DNA of 64,000 nt from Scatophagus argus (lineage: Eukaryota; Chordata; Actinopteri; Scatophagidae). This document shows, piece by piece, positions 1,359 to 52,900 of this stretch. A program made the position numbers and the translations under genes. The number at the start of each line of letters is the position of its first letter. Position 1 is the first letter of the stretch. The notes beneath the pieces are model-generated. The model was given only the letters and a program-made list of their open reading frames with translations, was not told where the DNA came from and made no database searches. The stretch is from assembly GCF_020382885.2 (NCBI RefSeq), contig NC_058514.1:14990249-15054248 (forward strand), written 5' to 3'.

Positions 1359-4300
1359 CTACAGGCGGGTGCAGGTACTCCCAAGTCTGCCATCCACTTC
1401 CTTGCTGTGATTTGTCCCAGATGACAGGTGTCTTCTACTGTCAGGTCGTTTCATTGGTCGGGACAGCCGGCCGGCGAGAATTTGCAGCACAGCGTCATGG
1501 ACAGTGGGGAACACCATCTCTGGAGTCACTATCCCAGTGAAAAACTGTAAGGCATCCAGCTCAGACAGTAGGCTTCCTTGTAGATCACAGCAGAAATGCA
1601 AGATCAGTCAGATCACTTATTATTAATAGGGACAGTTCCAATATAAATAAACATACATAAAATACATTTGGCAAAAAACTCCCCAGTTCCATATAGGAAC
1701 TATTTAAATAAAAAAAAAATCAAAATTACAAGCAATTGAACTTACACCACATTGCCCTTTGAATAAGTCAACCTAGCTAAAATGAATGGCTCCTTTAAGT
1801 TCAGTTTGGTTGACACTGTTTCAGGGACGTGCTGATTCATCTTTAATGGGCGTTTTGCTCTCGTTTGTGTTGCTCTAGTTCACCAACACCAATGAGATGA
1901 ACAAAACATTAGCCCTTTTTAGTGAGTTCTTTCTTTGTTGTATTAGCTTTAGCTACATGTAACTAAAAAAAAACTGGCTGAGGAATAAATTTGGACAAAA
2001 GAGATTTAGATATGATGAAATTATTGACTGGTTGATTTTCAAGTATTTGCTGTTTGTCTTTATACAACAAGTCTATACTACTTCAGCACAAGTTTTGAAT
2101 TTGCAAGCAGAGATGAAGTTAGAGAGAAAAAAAATGCCGCCACATCAGAGTGACTGGTTTAATTTGGGTGAGGCAGCTTCACAAGGATCCTCTTTCAGAA
2201 TCAGTAAACGACCCTCGGACTACAGTTACAACAAATGCAGAAGGAAGTCGTCATCATTACTTACTGCTGCAGCCGGCTATGACCACTTTAACGTCCACAG
2301 CTGCGTATTCCTTAATGACCTACAGAGACAGACAATGACTTAATTAAACATCAGGATGTAGCATAAAAAGCCTTTCTGAACTGGCAGCTCAGGAATGAAT
2401 CATTCATCTCAGCACTGACATCTACACTTGCTGCTGTAGTGAACCTGATATTGAAAATATCTTTCGAACCTGTTTAATGGCTTTGGCTCCCACGGAATCG
2501 ATGAAGCAGGCGGACGTCCAGTCCAGGATGATGGAGTGGACATTGCTGAGAGGTTCAATAAAGACAGCCTCTTCTAAGTCTGACTCGCCGTGTCTGTCCT
2601 CCATCTGGCCGTTCATCTGCTCCTCCACCACGTTGTTTTGAGTTAAAACCTCATGAGTCACTCCCTGCTCCTTATACTGGAACCCATCAAAGGAAAAGAC
2701 CAAATCTTATACTGATGGACACGTATAAGGTCAGCATTTCCATCTAGCTACCAAGATAAAAATGATCTACAGTAGTCACGGGTTGGATAAAATAGATGTA
2801 AATGCACAGTTGTGGCTTTAAAGGATCTCTCACTGCCTGAGGCCTGAGAGACATCCATTAAACCGCCTGTTTACACTGTCAACAAAGCTGACTGTTTACA
2901 TACGCAACAAACAACCAGGCAGAGCAGACAGACTCACCTTTGCGCAAACGTTCAGTGGGGAGTTGTTGTTGCCATTTGCCTTCTCCTTCTGTTTCTTTTG
3001 CACTTTCCAGGCAGCTTGTAAGTGCTCGGGGTTTACTCCTGTCTGTAAACACATCAGTAGTAGCAGATAAGTCAGGGAAACGGCTGATAATGTCTTTTTA
3101 ACAGGGAAACAAAAGCAAACGACTATTTGAATGTTAGCCCTTTCCTGTCCTCCATGCGTCCTTTTTATAATAACGGCTGAAAACACGCGGGGTGAAAAAC
3201 ATGATATGATATTGATTTATTTTCGATAAGCACTACCTAGTTCGACTTCATACACAATCTTATTTTAATGATATACTTTTGGCTTCAATCCTCATAAATA
3301 GTCAGCGCTTAAGTATGAGTCATAAATTGTGTTCAAATAAGAAATATAATTATATTTTTGGCTTGTCTAAACTACAAACCATGAATAAGCCTGCGTGTTG
3401 CAGGTATACCATTAAATACTTGTTGCTCAGACAACAGATCAGATAATCTCGCCTTGTGTCAAATCATCAGCAATCAGAGTCGAGCTGTTTTCACATTCAT
3501 ATCATTACACGTCTCTGGGCAACAATACTGACGGCCTACGCAATGCAACCTGCTTAAAACCAGTTCAGTTCCACAGTGGCTAGGATTACCTTCTCCTTGA
3601 GGGCGTTCACATAAAGGTCACTGTTAGCAAAGTAGATTGAAGAGTTGGAGTGGAAAATCTTAATCCCTTCATATTCAGCCGCCTGGGAACAAAAGCACCA
3701 ATTACAGACGTTCAAACCAGCAGACTGACATTTCTGTCCTCTGTTCAGACTTCAGTGTTTTCTCTTGTAACAGACTCACCTCTTCATACTCATCCACAGC
3801 GCAGTACAGCCCTGTGCCGGGCACGTGGCCCAGGACTGCACTTTTAGGGCTGAAGGACAAGAAGAAAGTTCAAAAACAAATTAAATTCATCTATTAGCAG
3901 GCCTTGAACATCATTCTACTTGTTCATGCAAATGGGTTTACATGCTGTTACATGCTGCATCATGTTCAATCAGTGAACACGGTGAACAATGATGTTAAGG
4001 GAAGAAAAATACACACTTTGTTTTATCAGTACCTCTGTGTTCTGTAGATGACTGTTAGCATGGCGAATGCAATGGCTACCAAGAGGCCGTAATCCAGGCC
4101 CAACAGCACAGACGCTACAAAGGCAACCAGCCAGATGGCCTGAGAGAGACAGAGTGAAGAAACAGAAAAAATAGTGGGTTTTTTTGGCCACACTGATGAT
4201 AACACTGACAGTGGCTCCCAGTCATCTCTCAGCCATGACCTCTCATTTTCAACTGAAAACAGGGGAAAAAAAGATTGAAACTTTATGATCACATCATGGG

Positions 4301-7300
4301 TAGAACATCTGAATTCTACATGCTTTTCAAGGTTGAACCATGACTTTGAATTCAACGGCAATTAGATTAGACTGCCCTTTACTATCAGATTCCATCAAAG
4401 ATTTGTCTTGCGTCATGAGTCAGCTGTTTGTCTGCAGATACAACATAATGACAGCAGACTGAGGTTTAAAAAAGAAAAAGAAAACAGTTTTGGTTTTTTT
4501 TTCTCAAATCTGCAGCTGAACTTGAGCTCATGCCAAAAAATAAAATCAGTCAAGTTAATAAATGCTTTCATGTTACTTTTTTTCTACGGCTGCGATGCAT
4601 CTACAAAGGCATATAAATATGTAGGAAAGCACCATGTAACAGCCACTAGGACTGCTTAATTCATGAAGGAAAAACACTTGGCCAAAGGGTCCGCCTTAAT
4701 AAAGTTTCAAAAATTATCAAGACACATTCCAGTCAGTAATTTGCTGTGGTCTGATGTTGTGTCTTGGTATGTGTTAAACATGATGACTGACTAAAAAGCT
4801 CACTACCAGTTAAACTGGACCTCTTCAAAAACCACAGTGGACAACAAAGTGCATAACATCTTCAGGCTTTCAGAGGGCTGCTGAGCTGCAGTGACATTAC
4901 TGATGTTATACTGACAGACTGACCAGTTCAATCTTGCTGCTCCTCCACAGAGCAGGAATGTCTCTGAACTGTTTGAACATCCCCAGGAGGTTAACCATGA
5001 TGATGGCAGCCAGCGCAGTCTGGGGCACAGAATGGAAGATGATAAGAACAAGACAATACAAAAGCACATTATAAAAATGATTCATCCACGGTTTGCTCAA
5101 CAGATTGAGGAGAAAATAAAAGTGTCTGCAGCCGCGCCTGTGACGCCGAGCTGCCACACAGGAAGCTGGAAGCTCAGTGTCATCAGCCCCACCCACCTGA
5201 GGGAGCGGCTCGAAGACAAAACCGATGGCAACCACCACCAGCAGCACCACGAGAGATGACAGCAACCCTGCAATCTACAACAATAACTGAGTCAACATCA
5301 CAATCTAATTATGGTTTTACAACTCTAATTTAGATAGTGACAAAGTAATCACTCCTTTAAGTGTGCTTGTGTGTGTGTTACCTGCGTTTTTCCGCCAGTG
5401 CTCTCCTGCACCAGGCTCCTTGACATGGAGCATGTGATGGCAAAGGTTTGGAAGAAAGAACTGATGAAGTTACACAGGCCATGTGCAATCAGCTCCTGAA
5501 ACACAAACATTTGTTCTCAGGTGTTGACACAGTAAACCACAATGAACTCCAGAGAGGGTCGTTTACGACATCATGCACAGATCCAGGTCAGTGCGACAGA
5601 CAGACATGTACCAAATACAAAAACACAGTAAGATCCCTTGTTTCCACTGTGGCTCAGTATGTTTACATGCACTGTAATAACCTGGTATCCATGAACACAT
5701 GCAGAAGGTCAGCGATCAGATCCTCTCTACATTCAGTCTTACATCAGAAGCCTTACTTAGAGGCTCTGCACACTGTGGGAAACCGAACTTCTCGCAGTCT
5801 TTAATCCCACCGCTCTCTTGTTTCAGCAATATTTACCTTGTCTGAAGTCTTTGTCTTGCACATGTTCACATACAAAAAGCAGATTAGAAACCTGCATGCT
5901 CTTATACGTGGAGAGCAATCAGCTTTCTAGCTAGGAAATTAGGGTTCTCTAATCCACTAAATCATTTACAGAACAGCAAACAGATTTCTCTGACTGTAAC
6001 CTGCTTACTTAATGGTCCACTTTGGAGGATTTTAGCGGAGAGGTTACAGATTGCGACCAACTGAACATCCCTCATCTCACCCTCTCCTACAGTGGCTGCG
6101 ACAAAGGTGAAAGGCCCTCTCTAGAGCCAGTGTTTGGTTTGTCCTCTACCACTGTAACACCATCAATTAAATAACCCTCACATCCTGCCACCTGGTCAAT
6201 GAATGGTGTCCACGTACCCTTTTCATTACTCCATTATTTTGTTATTATTGTCTAGTTTGGTGAAACTGATCATGACATTGTTATTTACTCTATTATTTCT
6301 TAGCTTAGTAGTCAATCAGCGTCTTTTCTTTTCGTTGTTTAAAGAGCAGAAATTACATACTGTGCATTTAAGTGCATGCAGTCACCATCCTAATGAGGGA
6401 TCTGTAGCTCATCAGCAGCTCCTCACGTGTTCACACTCACCTGGTTGCCGTCGACGCTGTAGCCGTGCTTCAGGGCAAAGATCTTCGAGAGCGAGATGCC
6501 CATTGAGAATCCTACAATTGCTACAGCAAATGCATCTGCAACCAAATTGGGTAACAGCGAGAACTCTGGGACGGTAGGAGGGAGAAGCCTGAGAACACAT
6601 AAGACACATAAGACTTGTGCTACATCCAGTACAATAAGCTTTAACCACAGAAGACATGAAATACCGTACAACTTCTACAGTGCATTCATATCTCTCAGCT
6701 GTAAAATCTTTGGACTGAAATACACCTCTCTAAATTGTGAGTTTTTCCAGAAATTCCTCTAACAAATTGAAAATATGACAACCTACCCTGTTGGAATCTC
6801 CCCGACAACATCCACCTTGTAGTTGCCTGATAAGGACATGCCATACGAGACCCCAGTTGACACGATGACCACGATAATCTCACCAGGAATGGGAATAGGA
6901 AGTTTCTTCTTGAAGCGCTCATTGAGGACTTTGACCACGTACAGGAAGATGAAGCACCCGAGGCCCAGGATGAGTGTGGCGACATTGGTGCTTGTGATGT
7001 CACTGACTACAGCTTTGACACTCTGGGACAAGAGAAATAAGATAGCGTGATGAATTTAAGTCATCTAATTTTTGCATTCACCAAACACACACCAAAAAAG
7101 GGTGGCAAAAAGATATTCGACGAACTGCCAAATCAAACTCTTTCCACCGTCAAATCCTACACTTCTATTAAAACTCACATAAATAACAGAGAGGGGCCCA
7201 CTGAAGCGCTTTGTTTTCACGCCCAGCAGGTACTTCAGCTGAGAGACCACGACGTGCACAGACGCTGCTGTAGTGAAGCCTCGCACCAGGGGCTCTGTGA

Positions 7301-10300
7301 GGTAGATCGCCACAAAGCCGAACCTGAGGAGACCTAAAACAAACTGAAAAAAAGGAAAAATAACAAAGAAAGCATGGAATAAGAAAGAGGTGATGGGATA
7401 AGAACAAGCAACATAGCTTTGTTTCAAATACAAGCATTTATTCAAGGTGTGGATACATCAACATTGATTTAGATATACTTAAAACATGGGTAAACCAGGA
7501 TTTTTGAGCGTGAGAAAGCTGTATCACTTCACTGTGATCTCTTAACCAAATAACACCCGCTCTGTGGGGGGGTGAAGCCAAATCCACAGCAGCTTTCAGC
7601 TGCTGGCAGGGTGTGCTGGGTGAGTTTTTTTAGAGGCTGACCTGAATGATTCCCACCAGCGTTGTGAGTACAACAGCCACCTGCACCCTCCTGGCATCTC
7701 GAGCCGCCACGTCCAGGATGGCAGACGTGTTGGATCCGTTGGCAGGCAGGGCAAAAAAGTCGGAGTCTGGAGCCTCCCTCACTGCAACACCTCCAATCAT
7801 CAGACTTATCACTGCAAAGGTGCCTGCAGATCACACACAACAAAACACAACAGTTTGTTTAGGGTATTTGTCCATCTTTATTATGTCAAAGTTGTGAAAA
7901 TACTTGCACCTTAACTGTGTGTGCGAGCTTGTGCCTTCACCCTACACATCATGTTTAGTATCCCCCTGAGTGAAAAGGCCAGCTTGCCCAGCACTTGAAC
8001 AGCAGCCCAGTTATTTCCTCTCAGTCTCTGCCAAAATTTTGGGGGTCATCATTTCCACAGCAACTTGCTGTCAGGCTTTGGCCACAGGCCCTTCTGCAGT
8101 GAAGCCTCCTGTAGTTCACTTGAGATCAGATCTTTTGTTTAAAAAGGTTGCGCAGGTTTGGTTTATCATGCCCCTCTGTCAGATGGACTTAAAGGTTAGA
8201 GCTGACATTTGAGATGGCTTCGAGGCCGTTCTTGGCAAGAAAGTAGTCACATGGGCGACATGAGGATGAGTGTGTAACTTATTCAGACAGTTCACTGAGC
8301 TGATCCCAGAAGACCCCTGACAGAGAAGGTTGACAGTTTGAGACGGTTTTGGCGCTGACTGAGGACAACCTGTGAAAAGGCCACCGACTGCCTTAAGGAC
8401 AAGAACTAATCCAGACCTTAGTGAACACTAACAATTACACAATATACAGACAAAAGTATTGGAACAGAGTTGAGAGCAGATGTCTTTATGGACCTTGCTG
8501 TGTGTTCTGGCGCACAGTCATACTGGAATAGAAAAGGGCCTTCCCAAAACTGTTGCCACAAAGGTGGAAGCATAGCATTGTCCAAAATGTCTTGGTATGT
8601 TGAAGCATTAAGATTTCCCTTCACTGGAAATAAGAGGCTGAGCCCAAGCCCTGAAAAACAGCCCCATACCACACCTGAATTCACACCTACAGTATATAGT
8701 ATACTACTGACAATAACATATGTTCTCTGGTATTACGGTGGTAAGACCTCTACTGTTTAATGCAGGCCTACTCATGCGGTCGATCATATTGACAGGCCAT
8801 GTCATTAACAACAAGCCTCCTCCACAGGCAGTTTTTGTTTTTTGTGTTTTGACGCTGTAAAATAAATGACCTTATCATAAAAGTACTGTTAGATTGTGGG
8901 GATATATGCCTATAAAATGAACACAGATGTAGATCAGGTTCGGCTGTGCATTGGAACATTATGCAAAATGTCTAATCTTAGTCAGTCACACATACACGCA
9001 GTCTCTTATCAGTGTTTGCCTTCACTGTAGGAAAATGCGACAGAGCAACAGCAAACCAAACAGCAGTTCTCTGTTGAACGTCATCATGTCTGAATCACTC
9101 ACCTTTGCCCACCTTCTGTCCAGACTAGCTGCTGTACATTATTATGAGTGTGTATGTGTATGCCTTTGAATGAAAAGGTCATCTTGCCCAACACTTAAAC
9201 ACCAGCTTGGTAATCCCACTTGCTCACTTCCAAAAGCTAAGGGATCACCATTTCCACAATGACCGGTTATCAAGCAAGATTTGTAGCAGTGGCAGCAAAG
9301 CCAACGGCTTCCTATTGTTCACTTCTGGTCAGATCTTTTGTTTCAAATGGCTGAGCGAGTCTTGCAGATTTTACCCCTTTTGCCAGATGGATTCGTAGTT
9401 TAAAGCTGACATTTGAGATGACCTGGCACCCATTCCAGGAAAGGAAGCAGTCAGATGGGTGAGACAGGGTGGGTCTTGGAAATTTCACAATCCCACTGTT
9501 GGTGTCAGCTGAGGACACTGTTATCACATCTGAGTAAATACGGTCCCTCCACATTACAAACTGATTCCAAAAAGCTTTGATGCTGTGTAAAACATAGATA
9601 AAACAGAATGTGATCATTTGCAAACTCTTTTTGACATATACTTAACTGTATACAGTACGAAGACAATATATTTCATGTTTTACCTCATTAACTTCATTGA
9701 TTTTGTATGTAATATATGCTTATTGTGGATTTAATGCCAGCAACAAGTTGGAGCAAAAAAAAAAAAAAAAAAGACTGTGCTCAGAAAATACATGTGCATT
9801 CACCTGAACACTCCACAGGTCAACGGGTTCACTGGTAACAGGTGAGAGGATTGTGACTGGGTGTGAAAGGGGCATGCTCAAAAGGCTCAGTCATTCACAA
9901 GCAAGGATGGGGCTAGGTTGACCACTTTGTCAAACACATGACTGTATAATAACATTACATGGGCTCAGGAACGCTTCTTAAAACTGTAAATCTGCGTATA
10001 AACACAGTTTGTTTGCAAATAATTGGATTCAGTTTTTTGTTTTTTGGGGGTTTTTTTTTACATTTTATACAGCAACTCTTTTGTAATGTATTTGAGTTGA
10101 TACCCAGAGCAGTGCTGGGCTCCCTGTCAGTGTAGGACAGAAAAGGCTGGCAGTTTAAAGTGATCATAGTGTTCCTGGCACTAGCGGTGAGGAGCGTCAA
10201 AAGGCCACTGGCAGTACTTCTCACCTATCGATATGTGTCTAGACGTTCCAAAGAAGGTGTAGAGCAGGACTGGGTAGAACGAGGAGTACAGACCATAAAC

Positions 10301-12305
10301 TGGAGGCACAGCAGCCAACATAGCATAGGCTAGACCTGTGGAGCAGAAGACAGGGAGAGATGAAAATAAACTGAACAGACCCAGAGGCCCAGTGATTGTA
10401 TCACAAGCTCAGCACCACGGAGATACCAAAACAGAGACGACATGAAGCAGAGAGCAGCCCCTCAGGAGTCGGCAGCTGGTCCTTCACACATCTAACCCTA
10501 CGTCATCCCACATAACTGGCCTGACCAAACTTGGCTTCTGGCTACTGCACAAAAGCTTCAGAAAGTGCTAATCGCTGACTCCATCAGGCTGTAAAGGTAT
10601 TGTTTTACAGGCTTTCATAAACAGAGAGAGGTGTTTATTTTTTTAATTCTCCACAATAAAAGTGCCTCATTGGGTGCCTCTAAGATAGATAAAGCATGAT
10701 AAAGTGCCCTCTATAATTCCCTTTCAGTGGACAAAATGGGATACAGGGCACAAATGGTTGCCCTTAAACTTGTGAGAAGGTGATGCAGTGAAATGCAGGC
10801 TGTCCTATATACTGAAACACCAGTTCCATGTGTTAATAATTTCCTGTGTGTTTTATTATATGTATGTATATGGTTTATAACTGTTTCACCATAAATACGA
10901 CACAACTTTCTGCGTGACAGTTCAGACAGTAGTGCGGCTGGGACCACAGGATGCTGACCTTGAGGGAGCTGGACAACTCCTGTGCTGAGACCTGAGACCA
11001 CATCTGAAAACAGGCACTGCTTGACTGAATAAGATGGCAGCCATGTCAGAATAGGAAGGAAACTCAAAACTACCGCCTTGGCCTTCTCTGATGAACATCT
11101 GTGAAAGGAAACAAGTCAATTAACTGATCAGCTTGATGGGACTTTTCGCCCCATCAAAGACAACATACATATTTAATTAATTACAGAAAAAATGGAATCC
11201 ATGTTCTTTTTCATTGAGCTAAATGGTAAAAACAGCATATCATTTATGTAGATTTGTCTACATTCTAAGTCTTGCACAGACATTAATACGGCCATGTCTT
11301 TAGTCCCAACTGCAACAATTACAAGAGAGTTTAGAAAGCTCACACTGTGTGTCTTCATCTGTTTTCACTTTTCTGCTTAAAGGCTCTTTGTACAAATTCA
11401 AAACATTCTTTGTGTCTGAGCTGGTAAGACTGACACTGTACCTTTGATGGAGAAGTCACATGTCAGTGTAGGAGTACATAATATATCATCTACCTAATGT
11501 GAATGTATTAAAGAAAACTGTTCTGATGCTCCCACCAAAATGACAGGACGAACCTTATCAAACAGTGCTCGCATGTGAATTTAGGGGTACCAAATGATTA
11601 TTTTGATTATCAGCTCAGCTGCAGATTCTAACTCTATAACTGTATAACTGATTAACTGTTTAGTCTGTAATATGTAAAAAAAAAAAAAAAAGAAAAAAAA
11701 AGTTGTGAAAAATTCTCATCACAATTTCCTCAAGTGCAGCGTGACTCTTCAAATTGCTTGTTTGAAAAATTGATTGTTTATTTATCAGAAAGCACAAAGA
11801 GAAGCAGCAAATTCTCAGATTTAAGACGCTGGAACCAGCAAACGTTTGACATTTTTGCTTTAAAAACGACTGAAACAATTAACTGATCACTTATCTAATC
11901 TTATCTACTCACTAATTTTCTTTCAGTCGACTAATTGCAGCAGTTCCACACTACTTATCAAATTCTGGATTTTTCCTTTGTAATGCATCCTTTTCATGAG
12001 TTACAGATAGACTGGATACATCATTGAGCCTTGTAGCAATATTTCCTTTTTGACTTGTGTGGACAGACCTACACTCGTGCAACAATTTGCTCAACAGTAC
12101 TTCAGCATGACAAAAATCTAGAGGTAAATTCCTCAGTGTAAACTTACTGGAACTGTTGTGCCAGCCTCTGTCGAAGGCTGATGGAGTTCTCTTTGCGGTG
12201 GAGAAGCTGCGACCGGATGAAGCTTTCATTGTAGACTGGACGCTCTATCCTGTATATCAGCTGTGAGTCTGCATCCTCCCGAGCTGCAGCTTCTTCTTGA
12301 TCCAT
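1359..12305 (-). CDS. slc26a5: Prestin, SLC26 family anion transporter
   Basis: Coding exons in 5'-3' order: 12305-12148, 11098-10959, 10335-10225, 7823-7642, 7343-7179, 7022-6787, 6588-6441, 5495-5382, 5274-5197, 5019-4924, 4139-4033, 3849-3780, 3682-3590, 3042-2938, 2676-2470, 2319-2265, 1576-1359. They join in frame to 760 aa with GT-AG at every junction. The N-terminal cytosolic part leads into a 14-helix SLC26 membrane domain, then a STAS domain (about 512-735). Visible marks are [10 protein letters not shown] (exon 2), GTSRHISIG (exon 3), two N-glycosylation sequons NGS and NTS at about 165 and 168 in the region of the known prestin sites, and Ser405-Arg406, equivalent to the anion-site Ser398-Arg399 of mammalian prestin. 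Fish prestin is known as an electrogenic anion exchanger expressed in hair cells; mammalian prestin is the outer-hair-cell motor. Exon 6 is unsplit, unlike the slc26a3 copies. Intron 3 (7824-10224) is full of repeats. Confidence 0.93.
7957..8262. repeat. Diverged direct repeat, copy 1, in slc26a5 intron 3
   Basis: About 260-300 bp match a second stretch at 9157-9468 in the same orientation. Shared blocks by eye include tgaaaaggYcatcttgccca, gatcttttgttt, gccagatgg-type text and agctgacatttgagatg. Divergence is considerable, so the duplication is old. I do not recognise the family. Confidence 0.75.
8436..8700 (-). mobile_element. Tc1/mariner transposase fragment
   Basis: The minus strand from 8684 encodes [12 protein letters not shown] and continues through [14 protein letters not shown] and [16 protein letters not shown], a Tc1-like DD34E transposase C-terminal half including the second catalytic Asp region. 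The frame then degenerates. The plus-strand text acagacaaaagtattgg at about 8447 resembles the 3' part of fish Tc1 relics. It is a dead fragment in prestin intron 3, lying between two copies of an unrelated direct repeat. Confidence 0.85.
9157..9468. repeat. Diverged direct repeat, copy 2, in slc26a5 intron 3
   Basis: This is the partner of the repeat at 7957-8262, in the same orientation and about 1.2 kb away, with the Tc1 fragment between them. Similarity fades beyond agctgacatttgagatg and picks up weakly again to about 9468. Confidence 0.75.
9560..9775 (+). repeat. Teleost dispersed repeat with poly(A) run
   Basis: The text around ataaaacagaatgtgatcat, ttgcaaa and gacaatatatttcatg matches a high-copy fish interspersed repeat that I recognise by pattern but cannot assign to a class. 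It ends close to a 19-base A run at about 9756-9774. It lies inside slc26a5 intron 3. Confidence 0.55.
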
Positions 12306-32800: not shown

Positions 32801-35800
32801 ACAATGTTACAATGTCGCTGTCTCACCAAGTTATCACGCAACTGGCAAGCCATGAAGTCCTGATAAGAAGGTTATTTCATATACACATAATCTGTACATG
32901 ATGTGACTATATTGTAGAAATTTGGATGTGATACACGTAAAATGCACAGAACTAACATATCCATGGTTAACAGAAACATACAATGTCAACATTTTTTTGT
33001 GGTGACTGGGTTGCATAAAAGTTTCCAGGAATAATAATACCGAGGTCTTCAAAGGGCAAAATATTAAAATATTTTTAAAAGTTTTTATGTGTGTCATATG
33101 GAGAAGTTGTATAGCAGTCACGTTTACATCCTTCAAAATCACTCTTTAACAGGAAAAATAAAAGGTGAAAAGTGCAAAACTGGTTGACATTTTGGGAAAT
33201 GCACTCACTGTCTTGCAGAACAACACATGAACATAGTTAAATCTGCAGTCCCATTAAAATGAAGATGTTGGGTTTGGTGGACTATCAGATAAATTAATGG
33301 CTGCTCTATACACTGTTAGGAATATGAATGGACATTAGTAGTCAGGTGATTGCACACATCTGGTGAATGAGCCAGTAACTGTGAAGTATCAATAATAAAA
33401 CAGCTGACACCAGTCAGCTAATACAAGTTGCTCCTGAGGTCAGCATGAGCTTTTCTCTGCCACATTTGATGTATTTTGTTGCATCCAGCTAGAATATACT
33501 CATTCAAAAGTTGCTTTTCTGGAGTGCTGATACCAGGGAACAGGACATGGACATTTTCTGCTGTCCCATCAGTGCAACAGATCAGATTCTAGGCCAGACT
33601 ACCTAGAAAACAGTAGCTGTAGGTGTTGTGATGCACGTCACATGTCATCACTGTTTGTTACCTCCACAGAAAGGGAAGAATGTTGTCATCTGCTTTTAGA
33701 TGGGCCTTAGTAGGATGTATAGCAGTAATATTGTATAGACATGGAAACATGACCATAGCTGCAAAGGCACCACTTTCTAGTGTGCACAGTCCACTGCACC
33801 TCTAGTGGATCTAGATCAAAATCAGATCCAGGTGTGGTGACCGCTCTGTACATGGAAAGAAGTTACAGTGGGTTTCATAAACCACCACATCATTTTCACG
33901 ATCTCACTGTTTCTTCCAGCTTGCCATGGGTGTCCTGCAGGTGGGCTTTATTGTCATCTACCTGTCCGACACACTGGTGTCTGGCTTCACCACAGCAGCT
34001 GCCATCCACATCCTGGTGTCCCAGCTTAAGTTTGTGTTGGGACTGCAAGTCCCAGGCATCAGTGGTCCACTTGCTATTGTATATGTAAGTACAAAACAGT
34101 TTGAAGCTTTCTCATTGCTTATCACAGTCAGGTAATTGGGGTCATTTATCTGTTAACCCTGACTTTTTGCCCTCTTCAGACCTTAGAGATCATATTCAAT
34201 AAGATAACTTCCAGCAACGTGTGTGACGTGGTGATCTCCTTGGTGATCATGGTGACGGTGTTCATCGTGAAGGAGCTAAATGACAGATTCAAATCCAAGC
34301 TGCCCGTACCCATCCCCATAGAGGTTATCATGGTGAGTAACATTGTCCAATATGACTCATAGTATTGATTGATTGATTGATTGATATATATTTGAACATA
34401 GATAAACAAAAAGAATGAAACAATCACACAATGAAACAGCAAGACTTAACGCTTATTGATGTTCAAAAGGAGTGGGAAGAAGCCAAAGCTTATTCAGTCT
34501 CACCCCTTCTCCCTAGTTACTTCAATATATACTATGATAATTTATAGAATAGTGATATTTATATACACACATATATACATCGATACACATACGTTCATCA
34601 TACAATAATGTATAATTTATAAGCATGCATACATACACAGATACACACACACACATATATATAGACATACATAAACACACGCACACACATAGCACAATGA
34701 GTATGTTTCCATAGCCTGAGGTGTTGAAATATAAACAGTAGTAATGATAACACATATTTTGATTGTGACTATTTATGACTGTGCTTGATTGGAGTGCGGT
34801 CCATAACAATTACTAATCTAATTTATGAGCTCATCTATGTCACCTAAAAGAAAGCATTCGTCTAAGTTCAAAGAAACAGTCCTCAATCTGTAGAACAGGA
34901 GTTAATAAATATCTAATTTTGAAACTCCTGTGAATCAGGACTAACGGCTTCTATCCATTGTGTCATTTCTTCTCCAGACTGTCATTGCATGTGGAGTTTC
35001 ATACGCACTCGATTTCAAAACAAGATATGGCATTGATGTTGTTGGTCATATTCCATTGGGGTAAGACATTTTGCACAAGAGTGAAAAGCAGTTTTTTTTT
35101 GCCTAGCTGTTTCGTCAGTGATAATTACAACAAATGCATCAAACATGCTGGGTATTTGGTGACAGTGATGTGGCCATGAAACTGATATAGTTCAAAACAG
35201 AAATTACTTTTGGAAAAAGTAAGATGAGTGAGGTGTTATTTGTCCTAACTGTGCACTAGTAGCAAGCAACATGAGTTTGAGTTTTCACACTCCAGTTCTT
35301 TCTTAGATTACTGCAAATAGGACAGGGCAAGTAATAAAAAGATAACTGTTCAGTGTGTGTGCTGCCTTGTCACTATGGCAACAAGTGTGTTTACTTTGGT
35401 GAAATTGGACTTGGTGGATCTTGCCCACTTGGAATTCTCTGAATGGAGAATTGACCCAGCAAATGTGTTTTACATGGTTTTGATGGTGGGGAAAACAATG
35501 TAAACCATCCAGTCCTGGAATCAACTCAGTCCTGGAATCAAACCCAAGACCTTACCATGAAGTGACAGTGAAAGTTGATCACTATCTTTGTAAGGTTCCC
35601 AGTTCTAAGGCTACATGAATAAATTTCTTTCAAACAGCCACATCCTTTGTCAGGTCAGTGTAGCTGCTTTTGCCTTGAATATAATGTTATGATTATGTTA
35701 TGAGTTTATGGGTCTCAATATCTGTCTATCCGAAGAGACTAATTCATGAGTTACATCACTCACAGTGGAAAGATAATGAGAACATAAAATACAATGCAGG

Positions 35801-43973: not shown

Positions 43974-46900
43974 ATGACGACTTTGAGGAGACAGTATGTG
44001 GTGGCCAGATCCGTGTATTCTGAGGACAGCTTTGCAGAAGATCACGAGAAAGTCTACAGGCAACGCAAAACTATGCTGAACCATGTGAAAGAGTATCTAA
44101 CGTAAGTGAAGCCCAGTTCTCTAGAGATCAGGAACATGGTCTTTGATTTGACTTAATAATTTGCACTCTTGACTGCAAACCTTATGCAAAATAAGGGGTT
44201 CATTGTGATAAGGAGCTTAAAGATATTGTTTCCAAGGTAAAGTCTTCAAAGAAGAAATTAGTAGATAAGTATAACAGCTTTTTACTTCTGTCAAATCCAG
44301 GTGTGACTCAAAACGGGCCAAGAATGCATTGCTCTCTGTTCTGCCGGTCATTGGCTGGATGAAGATCTACAAAGTTAAAGAGTGGATCCTGGGTGACGTG
44401 GTGTCTGGGATCAGTACTGGACTGGTGGCCATCATGCAAGGTGAGGAGCAGTACAGAGGGAGCCTGAGTGTGTGACTGCAGAGTCCAGTCACTGTCGAAG
44501 CATACAAAACAACCAATATCACTGGCTAAGTGGAAGACTGAGGAAATGATTCCATAAGAAAAATATTAATACTGACTATACATGCATCTATTATCCATTC
44601 TTACTTCTACTGTATTTTATGATCATTATTTATCTATTATAACATTATTTGCATTGTGACAGAATATTGCATAACAATATAATCTGCTGACTTTGCACTA
44701 CGTATGGATATAATTTGTAAAGGACTGTCATTGAGTTTGGCACTGTGTGCACGATCAGATCCTTACTCCTGTTCAGTTCACCTTTGATCAGATATTTTCT
44801 TTTTTGTTTTGAATTTTTTCGATTTTACACAGCGTTGCATGTAAGTGTAATATTTTGTATGGTTAGTTGTAATGACAATTAAATGACGACTATTGACTCT
44901 GACATAATTCCCCAAAGACTTGATCAGAAGCTTTCTCAGCTTTACATTAATTATGGTCAAGCCGTAAACAGCATTTTAAAAATGCCAGTGGCGTGGCTCT
45001 TGGAATGAGAATGTAAGTCACCCAGTCTGTCCCAGGAATATCCCATGAGAACTACTGGATGGTTTGGTAGAAAGCATTCTGGTACAAATCTTTGATTCAT
45101 AAGCACATATCTGCAAACTAATGACATCCCCACCAGCCTTAGTCGTATGTTGTGTTTTGTGCAAACTTGCAATTGGCAGCATGCTAACATGCAAAACTAT
45201 GATCATAAACGTCAGTTAGAATTTTCATTTGCACATGTTAGCATGCTGACTCAAAGAGCTACTGACTGTAGAATCTTAGTCCTTTTTTGTTAAATGTTAA
45301 CAATTTGTTGACAGCTTATACCCACAGATTTAGCTTCTCTTAGTAACAATTGTCTTGGTCTCCTTATAACTGTGGGACAGAACATAACTGGTCATTTATG
45401 GAAGCTGTTTGTTTGTTTTACAGAGACATTTAAATGAAAATGATGCATTAGTATTTAAATCTTCATTCTGTGTTTGATGTTTCGTTGCTTTCTCGCTCAG
45501 GACTGGCCTTCTCTCTGCTGGCCTCGCTGCCTCCAAGTTATGGCCTTTACACAGCTTTCTTCCCCGTACTAACATACTTCTTCTTTGGTACTTCAAGACA
45601 TCTATCTGTAGGTATGTCATACAACGCTGAGCTGCCATGAAATATTTTACATTTTTTTTCCTTTTGAATTAACTTTCCATACTCAGCTGGAAAAAGCATT
45701 TTAACATAAAATTATACAACTTAACTTTGAAAATAGCACCTAATGAACTTTTCAGAAAACTGAACACTCTTTGGGAAAAAACGTTTTCTTTATCTGTCTC
45801 CAGGTAATAAAACAAGTTTTCTGTCATAAAGCATAAACATATCACTTAAAGAGGCCACTTTGTTATGGATGTTATCATTTTTACCCAAGGAGATAAGACT
45901 GGATGTGATAAGGCTTAAAAGTGTCCTCCCGCTCCTCCACACTCACCTTCATGCAGGGTCCTTCCCAGTCTTGAGCCTAATGGTGGGGGCTGTGGTGACC
46001 CGTTTGGTCCCAGAGGATGGACCACCAGCCAACATCACTGGCTTCGAGGGACTGACCCAGGACCAGCAGAGAGTCCTGGTGGCTTCCTCTATGACCTTCC
46101 TCATGGGGATTTTCCAGGTCAGTTTAACTTTGTCTCCACACTGTACCAGCAATTCTGCAAGTTCTAAGAGGGATTTTTAAATCATTTTTCTGTTCCATGC
46201 AGCTTGCCATGGGTGTCCTGCAGGTGGGCTTTATTGTTGTGTACCTGTCTGACACTCTGGTGTCTGGCTTCACCACAGCAGCTGCTATCCACATCCTGGT
46301 GTCCCAGCTCAAGTTCGTGTTAGGGTTGACCGTCCCAGGCATCAGTGGTCCTCTTGCTCTCATATATGTAAGTACCAAACAGTTTGAAGCTTTCTCATTG
46401 CTTATCACAGTCAGGTAATTGGGGTCATTTATCTGTTAACCCTGACTTTTTGCCCTCTTCAGACCCTAGAGATCATATTCAATAAGATAACTTCCAGCAA
46501 CGTGTGTGACGTGATGAAGTCCAGAATGTACCTGAAAGTTATTTTACCAAGGGGTCTTTCATGTTGTCATGTGTAATGCCAGAACAATTAGCCTTGTCAA
46601 TTAATGTCAGCTCTGATAGAAACATTAATATTTCACTTTAGTGTACTGCTGGGTGGGAGAGCTGAGACAGCAGACAGCCACTAATAAATAGCTTTGTTGT
46701 TTTAAGGACCTCTGTTGCCATTATGGCACCAGGAAGTATGGAAATTTAATTTGACGTGGTACAATGCCAAATTTTCCCAAGTCCAAGTTCTTTCATAAGA
46801 TGTGCATGATGGTCTGTTGGATTATATATGAATCCCATCATGAACCAAATCAAATCTTGTTTCAATGAAAGATTTTCAGAGTATATTAGTACTGACCCAA

Positions 46901-49900
46901 AAGAGCTACACTAAACTATGAATGAATTGTACATCCACTGTATGAAGCAGTTGAAATAAAACATACAACATTTGCCTCTAAATTGTAGTGGAATAGTATA
47001 AAGCAGCAGAAAATGGAAACACTCAAGTAGAGTACCTCAAAATGTAATCAGGTACAATACTTGAGTATTATTTACTTTATTTATTATTTATTTACTTTCC
47101 CCCACTGAGAGCAGCCCTGCAAAATGTCCACAAAAAGAAAGAAAAGTTGATGCAGAGGGAAGGCAGTTTCATAACAGATGAGTAAGTGAATACATGTTTT
47201 TGTTTAATGGAGACTGGTACATTGTTTTGGTCGCAAAGGAGTGGCAGTGCTAAAGAAATACAATATACAGTTGGAGTACGGAGCCAAACACGGAGCCAAG
47301 TATGCTAAGCTTATTACTAAAACCAATAATAATAGAATATAATAAGGCCCAGGGGTGAAATTGAGTTTGACACCCTCGGAATAAATCAGCAAAAGTAGGG
47401 TTGCTCAATTATTAAATAATCACAACAAGACAATTTGAACTCTAACCTGTAGTAACACATTGTGCCAAATGTATAAGCAACATGCATTTGTGGACCTAAA
47501 AGAGTCTATGAACGATATAGCAGCTGGTGAGCTGAGCTTAGCACAAAGACTGGAAATAGGACAAAACAGGCAACCAACCATCCCATTTAAAACTTAGTAA
47601 CACGTTTGAGAATGGTGTCAAGCTCATTTGTTGAGCAGTGAGGAGTTTGAAAATGAGTTGGTAACACTGTTTCGGAGTGCAAACAGCTTAAACTAGCAGG
47701 TATAATAGTTAGCTGTTAGCTATTAATTGTCAGTTTACTCAAATTTCCACCAGTGTAAATTTCAAACAAAATTCCACTCACCTGTGTTCTATTCAGATGT
47801 TGGCAAAGTTTCACAGGTATCTCAAAAATATTCACAAGACAGGAGGCATCCATTAAAGCAGTACTGCCTATCTTTATGTGTTAAATGACACTTGAATATA
47901 TGGCCTTTTTATGATTCCTGTTGCATCTTTAAATGCCATGCCATGCCAATTTTGTCTGGTTGTGACAGTGTGACGCAATTGTAACCTATAACAAAATATT
48001 CCTTAATTGAGCTCAAAGTGCTGAGTAGTTTGTGTGTGCTTTTTTTTTTTTGCAACAGACCCTGGAGAAGATCTTTGTCCAGATCACCTCCACCAACATT
48101 TGTGACCTGGTGATGTCCATAGTGATCATGGTGGTGGTGTTTATTGTGAAGGAGCTGAATGACAGATACAAAGCCAAGCTGCCTGTTCCTATTCCCATAG
48201 AGGTTATCATGGTGAGATAAACCTTCAAGGAAGATACCTCTCATGCACAATTTACCTTATCAGCTACAACCCATGTATACATTACTACCTCACCATGCAT
48301 CACATAAATTTAGGCCTTTATTTGTATTGCTAAAGTTAACAGCATCAACCCTCACTGGTTGTGGCATCTAAGGAACACCTGGGAATTGAAAGTTGTTTGT
48401 TGTCAGGTATTGTTATATATGTTATATGCTATAAATGTATTATAAATATTATAAATGTATAAATGTTCATGAAGAATCAAACGCAGAACACAAAGTAAGA
48501 AAACAGAAGAGTTGCTTAAAATGGCTGCTGTTCACCAGCCACCACTCAAATCTTAGACGCTAGAAGTTGCCCTCACGCCTGTGAACACGCTAACTAAAGG
48601 TATAGTTTGGGAAGTTACTCTTTGTGTCCCAAACTAGACCTTTTTATAAGAGACATTTTGGATAGTCATAGTAGGAAAAGCATAACTGTTACTAATAACA
48701 TTAATAACATTATGACGTCAACGCTGACTTTGTACTAGTGTCCCGGTAAGCCACGAAAGTGTGACAGACAGACTGAAAATTGAAGCAGCTAAATGGAATC
48801 CAGTCATCGTTCATCTCATTATTTACACCTGCACTTTTCCTGCTGTGAAGTGCCAAAGTGTTGAGGTTTCTGCAAGTGAATTCTAAACCGCAATAGGTGC
48901 GAGTGCTTATAACTCTCAGGTGTTTTTTCTATTCACAGACTATCATAGCTTGTGGAATTTCCTATGGCTTCAACTTCAAGGATAAATATGATGTTGACAT
49001 TGTTGGCAAAATGGTTAGTGGGTAAGTTTAAAGCTCTACTCTACTTATGTCAGTAGATCATGTCAGGTGATTTGGATCCATTGATGGAAGAAATACCAGT
49101 GCTTTAAATACAGTACTGGATTTCTACTACTGGATTTCTAGATAAGGGGAACTAACTAGACAATGCCTTTTTTTCATGTATTTCACAAGCTTATTCTTTT
49201 TTTTTTTTTTTTTTTTTGAATACAGTATTAACGCAAGTTTTAACTCCCTCAAAATTGATATATATGCTACTTTCCATCAGATACTTTAAATGCAACGTTA
49301 AACACAATCATCCTTCAGGTATGAGTCTCCCATTGCGCCCAATATGGAAGTCTTCAAGGAGAGTGCTGTGGAGGCCTTTCCTGCAGCCATTGTGGGGTTT
49401 GCTGTTGCTTTCTCTGTGGCCAAAGTCTATTCTACCAAACATGATTACACCATTGATGGGAATCAGGTGAATTACGTATATTATCCTTGTCTGGATCTGA
49501 AAAAGGAAAAGAGTTAATTAGTTACTGATACAAAACTAGTATGAAAGTAAGACTGCTCATAAGTTTCTTTATGAACATATAAAGTTATGCTAACTGCTGA
49601 TTTTACTTCAAGGTCAGATGTGTATAAAAAGCAGGCCAAACAGAATTATTCAGTTATGTAATCTTTTGTTGCCAGGGAGGTTAACTTTTAATTACTTCCT
49701 TCACAGGAGCTAATTGCATTTGGGGTTAGCAACATATTTGGTGCCAGCTTCCGGTCATTTGCAGCCAGCACGGCACTCTCAAGGACAGCTGTGCAGGAAA
49801 GCTCGGGAGGTAAAACACAGGTCAGATGACAAATCTTCCCGTTTACAGCATAATTTCATGAGTTACAAACTTTTACTACACACAGATTTTTTTGTCTCCC

Positions 49901-52900
49901 TAAAAAATTATTGTAGTATTCCTTTACAGTTTGGTTTATAACATATTATTTTCCTCCACTGGCAGGTTAAAATGAAACATTAACTCTTTTACAGATTGCA
50001 GGTCTGATCTCAGCCATGATGGCGATGATTGTAACTGTGGCACTTGGCTTCCTGCTGGAGCCGCTTCCCAGGGTGAGACCCACTTCTGTAATATGTTTAC
50101 ACTCCCTTTATGGAGACAGAATTTGAAATGTCTGTCATGTTGTTTTATAGAGTGTATATCTTACACAGTATGTCTAAAAGTATGTTTGTTTTGTTATGCA
50201 TTCCCTTAATATCTGACTTTGCTCCAGTCTGTCCTGGGTGCCTTGGTTATCGTCAACCTGAAGGGCATGCTGATGCAGTTCAGAGAAATCCCGTACCTGT
50301 GGAAGAAGGACAAACCAGACTGTGTATGTATTCAAAATGTCATTTATTTTACTTTACTATTACTTACTCTTCTCTTTCAGTGTTTGACCTCAGGTGTTTG
50401 TCTGCAGGTGGTGTGGGTATTCACTTGTCTGTTTGCCTGCCTCCTGGGACTGGACCTTGGTCTGGCGGTGGGCTTGGGGGTGGAGCTGCTCACTGTGGTC
50501 TTCAGGACTCAATTGTAATAATACTTACAAAGTTTAAACATGCAAACTGACTAATAGTGGATAAAAACACTATTGACACCCAGAAGTATACATAGTATAC
50601 AATAATAGTGCACCAAATAGCACTAAAATTTGCAGCACTAAAGCAGCAAAATTCCTCAGTGATGACTGGAAAGACAAAAAGTTATTAAGTAAATCTTTAA
50701 AAGTTTTGTTTCATTATCATAAAATCCACACCCTAACCTAAACAAACCAATACTTATGTTGGACCCTCATCATGTCCTTGTAGCCCCCGCTGTTCTGTCC
50801 TGGCTAACATCCCAGGGACCGACCTCTACAGAGATCGCAAAGATTACTTGCATGTGAGTGTGTTAAACAAACCCAGCTGAACATACATCTTTTGAATTGT
50901 TTCAATTCATGTTGTGATATCCTGCTGATGTCCTTCACCATTTTTGTCATGGTGCTTCTCTTCTCAGTTATTTGAACCAAAGGGAGTAAAAATCTTCAAG
51001 ATACCCTCGCCTATCTTCTTCGCCAATATTGAGTTCTTCAGGGACAAGCTCGTAGAAGCTGTATGTATGACGTATCTACCGCCCAGAAACGTTCCTGTGC
51101 CATTATTTCCTTCCTGTTACTGATTTCAACGCCTGAAATCTGGCAATACGTACTTCCAATTCAATACCAAATCTATTATTATTATTTTTTTAACAGCTGT
51201 ATACTTCTAACTCTGTATGGATGTGATATATTTTCTATCATTGTTGTATGGTCCAGCTAAGGTTGAACGCTTTGTAAAACATAAACAAATACAAACAGAG
51301 AAATGATGTCATAGAACTTTCCTGTTTTATCTAGTCAGTCAGTCTACTTAGTGCATCTTTTCCCTGTCACCCAAAAATACACAAGGACAAATCTAAGTTT
51401 TCTGACATTTGCTTAAAGTTACAAAAATCCCTTGCTGTTTATATTGCCCAATCTGTTAAGTTATATAAAGATTTCAGGGCTAATAATTTACACAGAGTCA
51501 GATCCAGCACTTTAGTATCAGAATAACTGTGAACATAATGCATAAACATGGTTGTTTCAGGTTGGCTTTAACCCTCTGAGGATTTTGAAGAAGAGGAACA
51601 AGGCTCTCGGGAAAATTAAGAATCTGTTAAAGAAACAGGACGATGACTTCACAGAGGTAAGAAACTACTGCACCAGTGAGGGCTTCATAGTGTTCTTCTT
51701 AAAGACCTGAAGCATCCTTTCCTACCTCTGTCAAACAGAAAGGCTTGAGGAACTTATGCAGCCAGATGACTGATGAGCCTTACATGAATATGGAGCAGTT
51801 GGATCAGCCCACTGACCTAAATGACCTTCGTTTTCGGATGGACTGGAACGTCGAGCTTCCTCCTAACATCAATGTTCCCAGAGTAGACATCCACAGCCTG
51901 ATCCTGGACTTCTCTGCTGTCTCCTTTGTGGACATCTCTGCTCAGAAGGGACTCAAAATGGTATAATGTTATTCAGGGGGCTCCCACATAATAGAGTTTA
52001 ATAAATTCTAATGGCAGTGAAGCTAAGAAAAGTGAAAATTACTTAGCAGGTTTTCCCAAAACTCAAAGCTCATTGTGTAAATTACCCACGTCATCACTCC
52101 AAAACATGTATTCATAAATTCAAGTATTCAATTAGTTTTCACCAAAGAGTAAGAAAGAGTCATAACTCACCTTGTTTGCAGTTCAAGGTGTCCTGTCAAC
52201 AGATGTCTCCTTTATAATGGTAGTCTATGGGCTAAATTCTATATTAGTTATTATTATTTTTTTTGCTGCAATACTGTCAGTGGCCATTGGGCACATCCAT
52301 CCATCCATTTTCTATACCGCTTATCCGTCAGGGTCGCGAGGGAGCTGGAGCCTATCCCAGCTGACTACGGTACACCCTGGACTGGTCGCCAGTCAATCAC
52401 AGGGCCGACACATAAAGACAGACAAACACACACTCTCACACTCACACCTAGGGGCAATTTAGAGTAGCCAATTAACCTAATGTGCATGTTTTTGGTATTG
52501 TGGGAGGAAGCCGGAGTACCTGGAGAAAACCCACTCAGGCAACTTAGCTCATGCAAACTCCACATCATTCAGTGGATCTATGCTTAGCTTAGGAAGTACT
52601 TAAAGTGCTTTAAAATAAATTCTAAAACTCCACTGTGGACATCTGAGGTGGCATCAGGAGGAAATGTTTGCATCCCAGCAATGACAGCTCAATAATATTA
52701 AAACTCCAAAGATTTTACATACATTCAACTTTTAACAGTGTTAGAAAATATTATATATATAAAATATTTAATAATAATACTACACTGCCAGCAACTTGTC
52801 ATGAGACAAAACTTCCTTTCCAGACCAAGATGGTCAAATCCAAAGTGTGCAGAAAGATCGCATATATGTAAGTGGTGAATATGCAATGAAGTAGTCCTGA

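Follow-up and report, generated by a model that had tools for sequence, protein, structure and literature searches.

The analyzed window, i.e., the whole stretch of 64,000 nucleotides under study (NC_058514.1:14990249-15054248), originates from the Scatophagus argus assembly (570.7 Mb in 48 contigs) and harbors two tandem slc26a3 genes, both on the + strand. Gene models (exons 1 to 16) and their start codons were defined manually, the exons 3' of exon 16 being seen as fragments; in both copies, exons 1-16 join to open frames of 1974 bases (copy 1) and 1965 bases (copy 2), separated by GT-AG introns. In copy 2, the Pfam domains PF00916 (Sulfate_transp) and PF01740 (STAS) were identified, and the best solved relative of its residues 1-427 was the Chloride anion exchanger (E 1.1e-151), which we take to be SLC26A3; this combination of both domains and best solved match characterizes SLC26A3 members. 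The peptide encoded by exons 5-6 of copy 1 also matched the Chloride anion exchanger best (E 3.1e-33), followed by prestin (4.3e-32). Upstream of the pair, and opposite to it on the - strand, matching fragments of a prestin-like SLC26 gene were observed at about 1440-11100, whose exon 5-7 peptide had prestins as best solved matches. The two slc26a3 copies were compared over 14 of the 16 modelled exons (exons 1 and 16, which are of unequal length, being left out) and all 15 introns. The features relevant for this comparison are as follows:

33920-34084, + strand: exon 5 of slc26a3 copy 1 (hand-built 16-exon open frame; 147 of 165 bases identical to copy 2)
34085-34179, + strand: intron 5 of slc26a3 copy 1, 95 bases, likely donor of the tract (94/95 identical to 46368-46462)
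34180-34332, + strand: complete exon 6 of slc26a3 copy 1, its first 51 bases representing the presumably copied part (tract alignment and open frame)
46203-46367, + strand: exon 5 of slc26a3 copy 2 (more synonymous identity to copy 1 than in other exons; perhaps an older layer of conversion)
46368-46462, + strand: presumably copied intron 5 in copy 2, whose first bases (GTAAGT) also serve as the exon-5 donor of copy 2
46463-46513, + strand: truncated, presumably copied exon 6 start (decoy) behind a stray acceptor (50/51 identical; acceptor score 11.1)
46502-46503, + strand: GT following exon base 46501, a weak candidate donor (score 5.2)
46514-46576, + strand: non-homologous remainder of the decoy frame up to the stop (17/51 identical to copy 1)
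46683-46688, + strand: AATAAA in the letters, possible poly-A signal downstream of the decoy stop
46947-47314, + strand: diverged stretches resembling interspersed repeats, within native intron-5 DNA of copy 2 (70-86% identity to scattered genome places)
48059-48211, + strand: own exon 6 of slc26a3 copy 2 (open frame; 123/153 identical to copy 1 exon 6)

Pairwise alignment of 34085-34230 with 46368-46513 revealed 2 mismatches in 146 positions and zero gaps, confirming the number that an earlier note on this DNA had estimated. The mismatches are located at 34093/46376 (A-C) and 34183/46466 (T-C), i.e., one in the intron part and one in the exon-6 part (50/51 identical). Since the first of them lies 9 bases into the intron, it may represent native copy-2 sequence, in which case the tract would comprise 46377-46513 with 1 mismatch in 137. 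The left edge is sharp, with 36 of the final 45 bases of exon 5 being identical, followed by 94/95 in the intron. The longest exact runs common to both gene regions (89 and 47 bases) were each found within the tract, and its 43-base core occurred twice in the 64-kb window and in none of 100 shuffles. As is expected for gene conversion, the tract (144/146) is far closer than its flanks, namely the left exon (147/165) and the next 51 bases on the right (17/51).

The slc26a3 neighbours represent an old tandem pair. The 12 other compared exons showed identities between 59% and 82% (jointly 941 of 1297 bases), and among the 15 same-position intron pairs, intron 5 was the sole clearly similar one (E 1.6e-46), the best other match between any two introns of the copies comprising 27 bases (E 5.6e-4). 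In exon 5, 18 of 165 positions differ between the copies, as previously approximated, versus 1 of 95 in intron 5 (Fisher p=0.0023), and the fourfold sites of this exon also exceed the intron in divergence (7/33 versus 1/95, p=0.0003). An intron that is less diverged than the exon next to it is the opposite of what shared descent predicts. Equal divergence of intron and exon, which the earlier note had named as the outcome speaking against its proposal, was not found in the alignment, and the proposal itself, a recent event resembling gene conversion from copy 1 to copy 2, is supported by this difference. Furthermore, the first 51 bases of exon 6 in copy 1 differ from the real exon 6 of copy 2 at 16 positions and from the decoy at only one (p=8e-5). 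The two real exons 6 are unevenly diverged (34180-34332 versus 48059-48211), the last 102 bases differing at 14 positions versus 16 in the first 51 (p=0.016). This unevenness is not predicted by a simple history and counts against the explanation preferred below.

On its right side, the tract enters the native flank of copy 2 without a gap. Past 46513, neither copy 1 nor the real exon 6 of copy 2 showed homology above that of shuffled sequences; the best local score was 8, compared to a mean of 8.8 for single-base shuffles (422 of 500 scored as high). When the right-flank DNA (beyond query base 150, up to 46640) was searched for in the genome, no second place was found besides its own. The native remainder of intron 5 in copy 2 is about 1.5 kb long and contains the repeat-like stretches at about 46947-47314, for which many scattered matches with 70-86% identity were obtained, these identities resting on 40 of 228 candidates scored. 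As the stretches are diverged, the native remainder is probably older than the transfer event. A cryptic acceptor (score 11.1) was also noticed in this native intron, at 47797.

The best explanation for these observations, and in our judgement a highly probable one, is a recent, one-sided transfer from copy 1 to copy 2 by templated repair or gene conversion. In copy 1, intron 5 and exon 6 are continuous and complete, whereas copy 2 possesses a truncated exon-6 start in addition to its own exon 6; from this we infer that copy 1 is likely the donor. The reverse direction is less likely, as it would require that an orphan exon piece was already present in copy 2. With respect to the repair route, copy 2 may have suffered a break or a stalled fork close to where exon 5 meets intron 5, which was repaired on the copy-1 template, with strand pairing or invasion presumably taking place within the homologous exon 5 or the donor. 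Copying would then have extended over about 140-150 bases (intron 5 plus the initial third of exon 6), before the new end was rejoined to native intron DNA of copy 2 that lacks homology to it. As an outcome, a donor, an intron of 95 bases, an acceptor and a truncated exon 6 would precede the long native intron of copy 2 and its real exon 6. The two ends of the tract, the left one adjoining homology and the right one lying without it, fit such a course of strand invasion at exon 5, brief synthesis and non-homologous rejoining. Because of this right end, which is unlike copy 1, the event does not represent a textbook two-ended conversion, where both tract ends are placed in homologous DNA and no DNA is gained on balance. 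Its template is local (same contig and strand, at a distance of 12.3 kb), and one end was joined without homology, as in templated insertion. The event therefore appears to work like conversion while being closer to templated insertion, i.e., a mixture of both. At rates between 1e-8 and 5e-9 per site per year, the 2 mismatches in 146 would correspond to an age of about 0.7-1.4 million years with a wide margin; the mismatches are few (95% upper bound of the tract divergence about 5%), leaving this age loose.

To evaluate the splice sites, a weight matrix was built from the own sites of both genes (about 30 of each kind), giving rough scores. With real sites left out of their own matrix, the stray acceptor reached 11.1 and the real exon-6 acceptor of copy 2 (48059) 9.5; with 48059 kept in, the order flipped (11.5 for the real acceptor versus 11.1), so that the two are to be regarded as comparable. 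Of the 1449 AG sites in both genes, 14 scored at least as high as the stray acceptor, among them the decoy, its counterpart in copy 1 and two further sites at which no modelled exon begins. The open frame from 46463 comprises 37 codons and its stop ends at 46576, and the real exon 6 begins 1596 bases beyond the stray acceptor. The earlier descriptions of a good acceptor (as scored with this small local matrix), of a 37-codon frame and of a real exon 6 about 1.5 kb further on were thus accurate. It had also been stated that the piece ends inside exon 6, which agrees with the dissimilar right flank, and that it has no donor, which is slightly too strong, given the weak GT after 46501. The score of this site exceeds 6 of 32 real donors (leave-one-out), and an equal or higher score is reached by 120 of the 1463 GT sites, of which 30 belong to the 32 real donors. 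Splicing from the weak GT would yield a 39-base in-frame microexon; with each of three further donors that were read through (46503, 46572 and 46605), the frame is shifted.

As the stray acceptor is comparable to the real one, the decoy could serve as a premature terminal exon, and a fraction of the copy-2 transcripts may be spliced to it and terminate prematurely. Due to the stop after 37 decoy codons, exons 1-5 plus the decoy would specify 272 residues (235 + 37), i.e., a truncated transporter. One may further suppose that the piece was retained as a regulated poison or premature terminal exon, because it lowers the output of copy 2 or makes a short protein. This reading concerns the consequence and is compatible with the transfer; the good acceptor behind a short intron, the in-frame stop and an AATAAA starting at 46683, 107 bases past that stop, would suit it. 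The splice signals, however, come free with the copied DNA, and an AATAAA occurs by chance in such a span with a probability of about 0.21 (about 0.23 expected), and we consider such a regulated exon unlikely. Hardly more probable is the broader proposal that one repair event moved a whole splice unit (donor, branch region, acceptor and exon start) and thereby equipped copy 2 with a premature terminal exon by which its product is reduced or truncated, which would represent a single-step regulatory divergence of tandem duplicates. Most likely, the copied piece is a near-neutral scar.

The earlier note regarded an assembly error as the main alternative to the transfer. Such an artefact, in which a read or contig piece of copy 1 was misplaced into copy 2 in gap filling or polishing, is still a rival, since the tract has about the length of one short read, for which a small probability was kept, and starts beside an exon common to both genes. 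It is nevertheless weakened by the contiguity of the assembly, whose 570.7 Mb are contained in just 48 contigs, and by the window and 100 kb on either side (264 kb in total) being free of N. Moreover, the piece carries its 2 mismatches relative to copy 1 and passes on the right, gapless, into DNA found at that place only; an artefact is therefore quite improbable. Within the 570.7 Mb, the tract was found at two places, both in slc26a3, by a search that skips very common words, and an origin from a transposon is unsupported, as genome searches gave just these two places. In a genome-wide protein search, the decoy was absent as a separate match among the 15 matches listed. The tract pair was also absent from the three pairs listed in a self-comparison of the 264 kb at an identity of at least 94%, because the alignment extends into exon 5, where similarity is lower. 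A 280-base direct repeat with 97.5% identity was observed in the 100-kb flank before the window (L018 about 8250-8529 and L020 about 6102-6381); its second copy partly matches a place in L034, itself 94% identical to 52398-52531 of the window, indicating that it is probably an interspersed repeat.

Exon 5 itself (33920-34084 and 46203-46367), the first 35 bases of which are identical in both copies, appeared to be unusually similar. Codons for the same amino acid were identical in 40 of 50 cases, versus 147 of 312 in the 12 other exons (p=1.3e-5). The fourfold sites agreed in 26 of 33 cases, versus 67 of 169 (p=4e-5). In a column-shuffle test over exons 2-15, the best segment was equally high in 6 of 5000 shuffles, an outcome that uneven constraint could also cause. 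Compared to the prestin-like gene, with 9 of 16 exons taken in, the excess was weaker and non-significant for copy 1 (16/28 in exon 5 versus 49/126 elsewhere, p=0.09) and copy 2 (15/28 versus 47/122, p=0.20), so that constraint may contribute in part, without being favoured as the sole cause of the likeness. Exchange at the slc26a3 pair may hence be layered, and there is moderate evidence, from these synonymous sites, for an earlier exchange in exon 5, i.e., a putative older conversion tract. An old homogenisation of exons 5-6, after which selection on a conserved regulatory or RNA element kept the intron alike, would share this excess of synonymous identity as support, but is very improbable, as it requires an intron constraint exceeding the coding constraint, leaves the truncated, extra exon-6 piece of copy 2 unexplained and finds no parallel in the other 14 same-position intron pairs, none of which is clearly alike.

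The recent transfer is of a known kind, of which this locus is a tidy example. With interlocus (ectopic) gene conversion between tandem paralogs, it has in common that a short tract passes in one direction between homologous genes lying side by side, and differs from it in the non-homologous right end. With SDSA, microhomology-mediated BIR and templated insertion, it shares strand invasion, limited synthesis and rejoining elsewhere. The sections considered here of a review describe dissociation of the D-loop after several hundred bases, as well as template switches that occur at microhomologies of 2-5 bp (PMC7407515); they provide the component processes, while this exact hybrid outcome is absent from them. 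Exonization of intronic insertions (e.g., Alu), as outlined in the portions of the literature considered, is alike in that the inserted DNA brings an acceptor into an intron; there the source is a transposon, whereas the copy-2 tract stems from a real exon of the paralog together with the intron belonging to it, and the decoy is a candidate exon. No published description of this very case was found among the matches listed in a literature search of titles and abstract openings.

The gene at stake encodes a transporter important for salt and water balance in the fish gut. For eels, the parts considered of one study report two slc26a3 genes whose expression is abundant in the intestine and increases after seawater transfer (PMC8215749). 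Use of the decoy in RNA, if found, would raise the importance of the tract. If the tract is real and used in RNA, it would provide a clean natural test of a short copied intron against a distant real exon, and would indicate that one non-allelic repair event can give a gene a ready-made splice acceptor.
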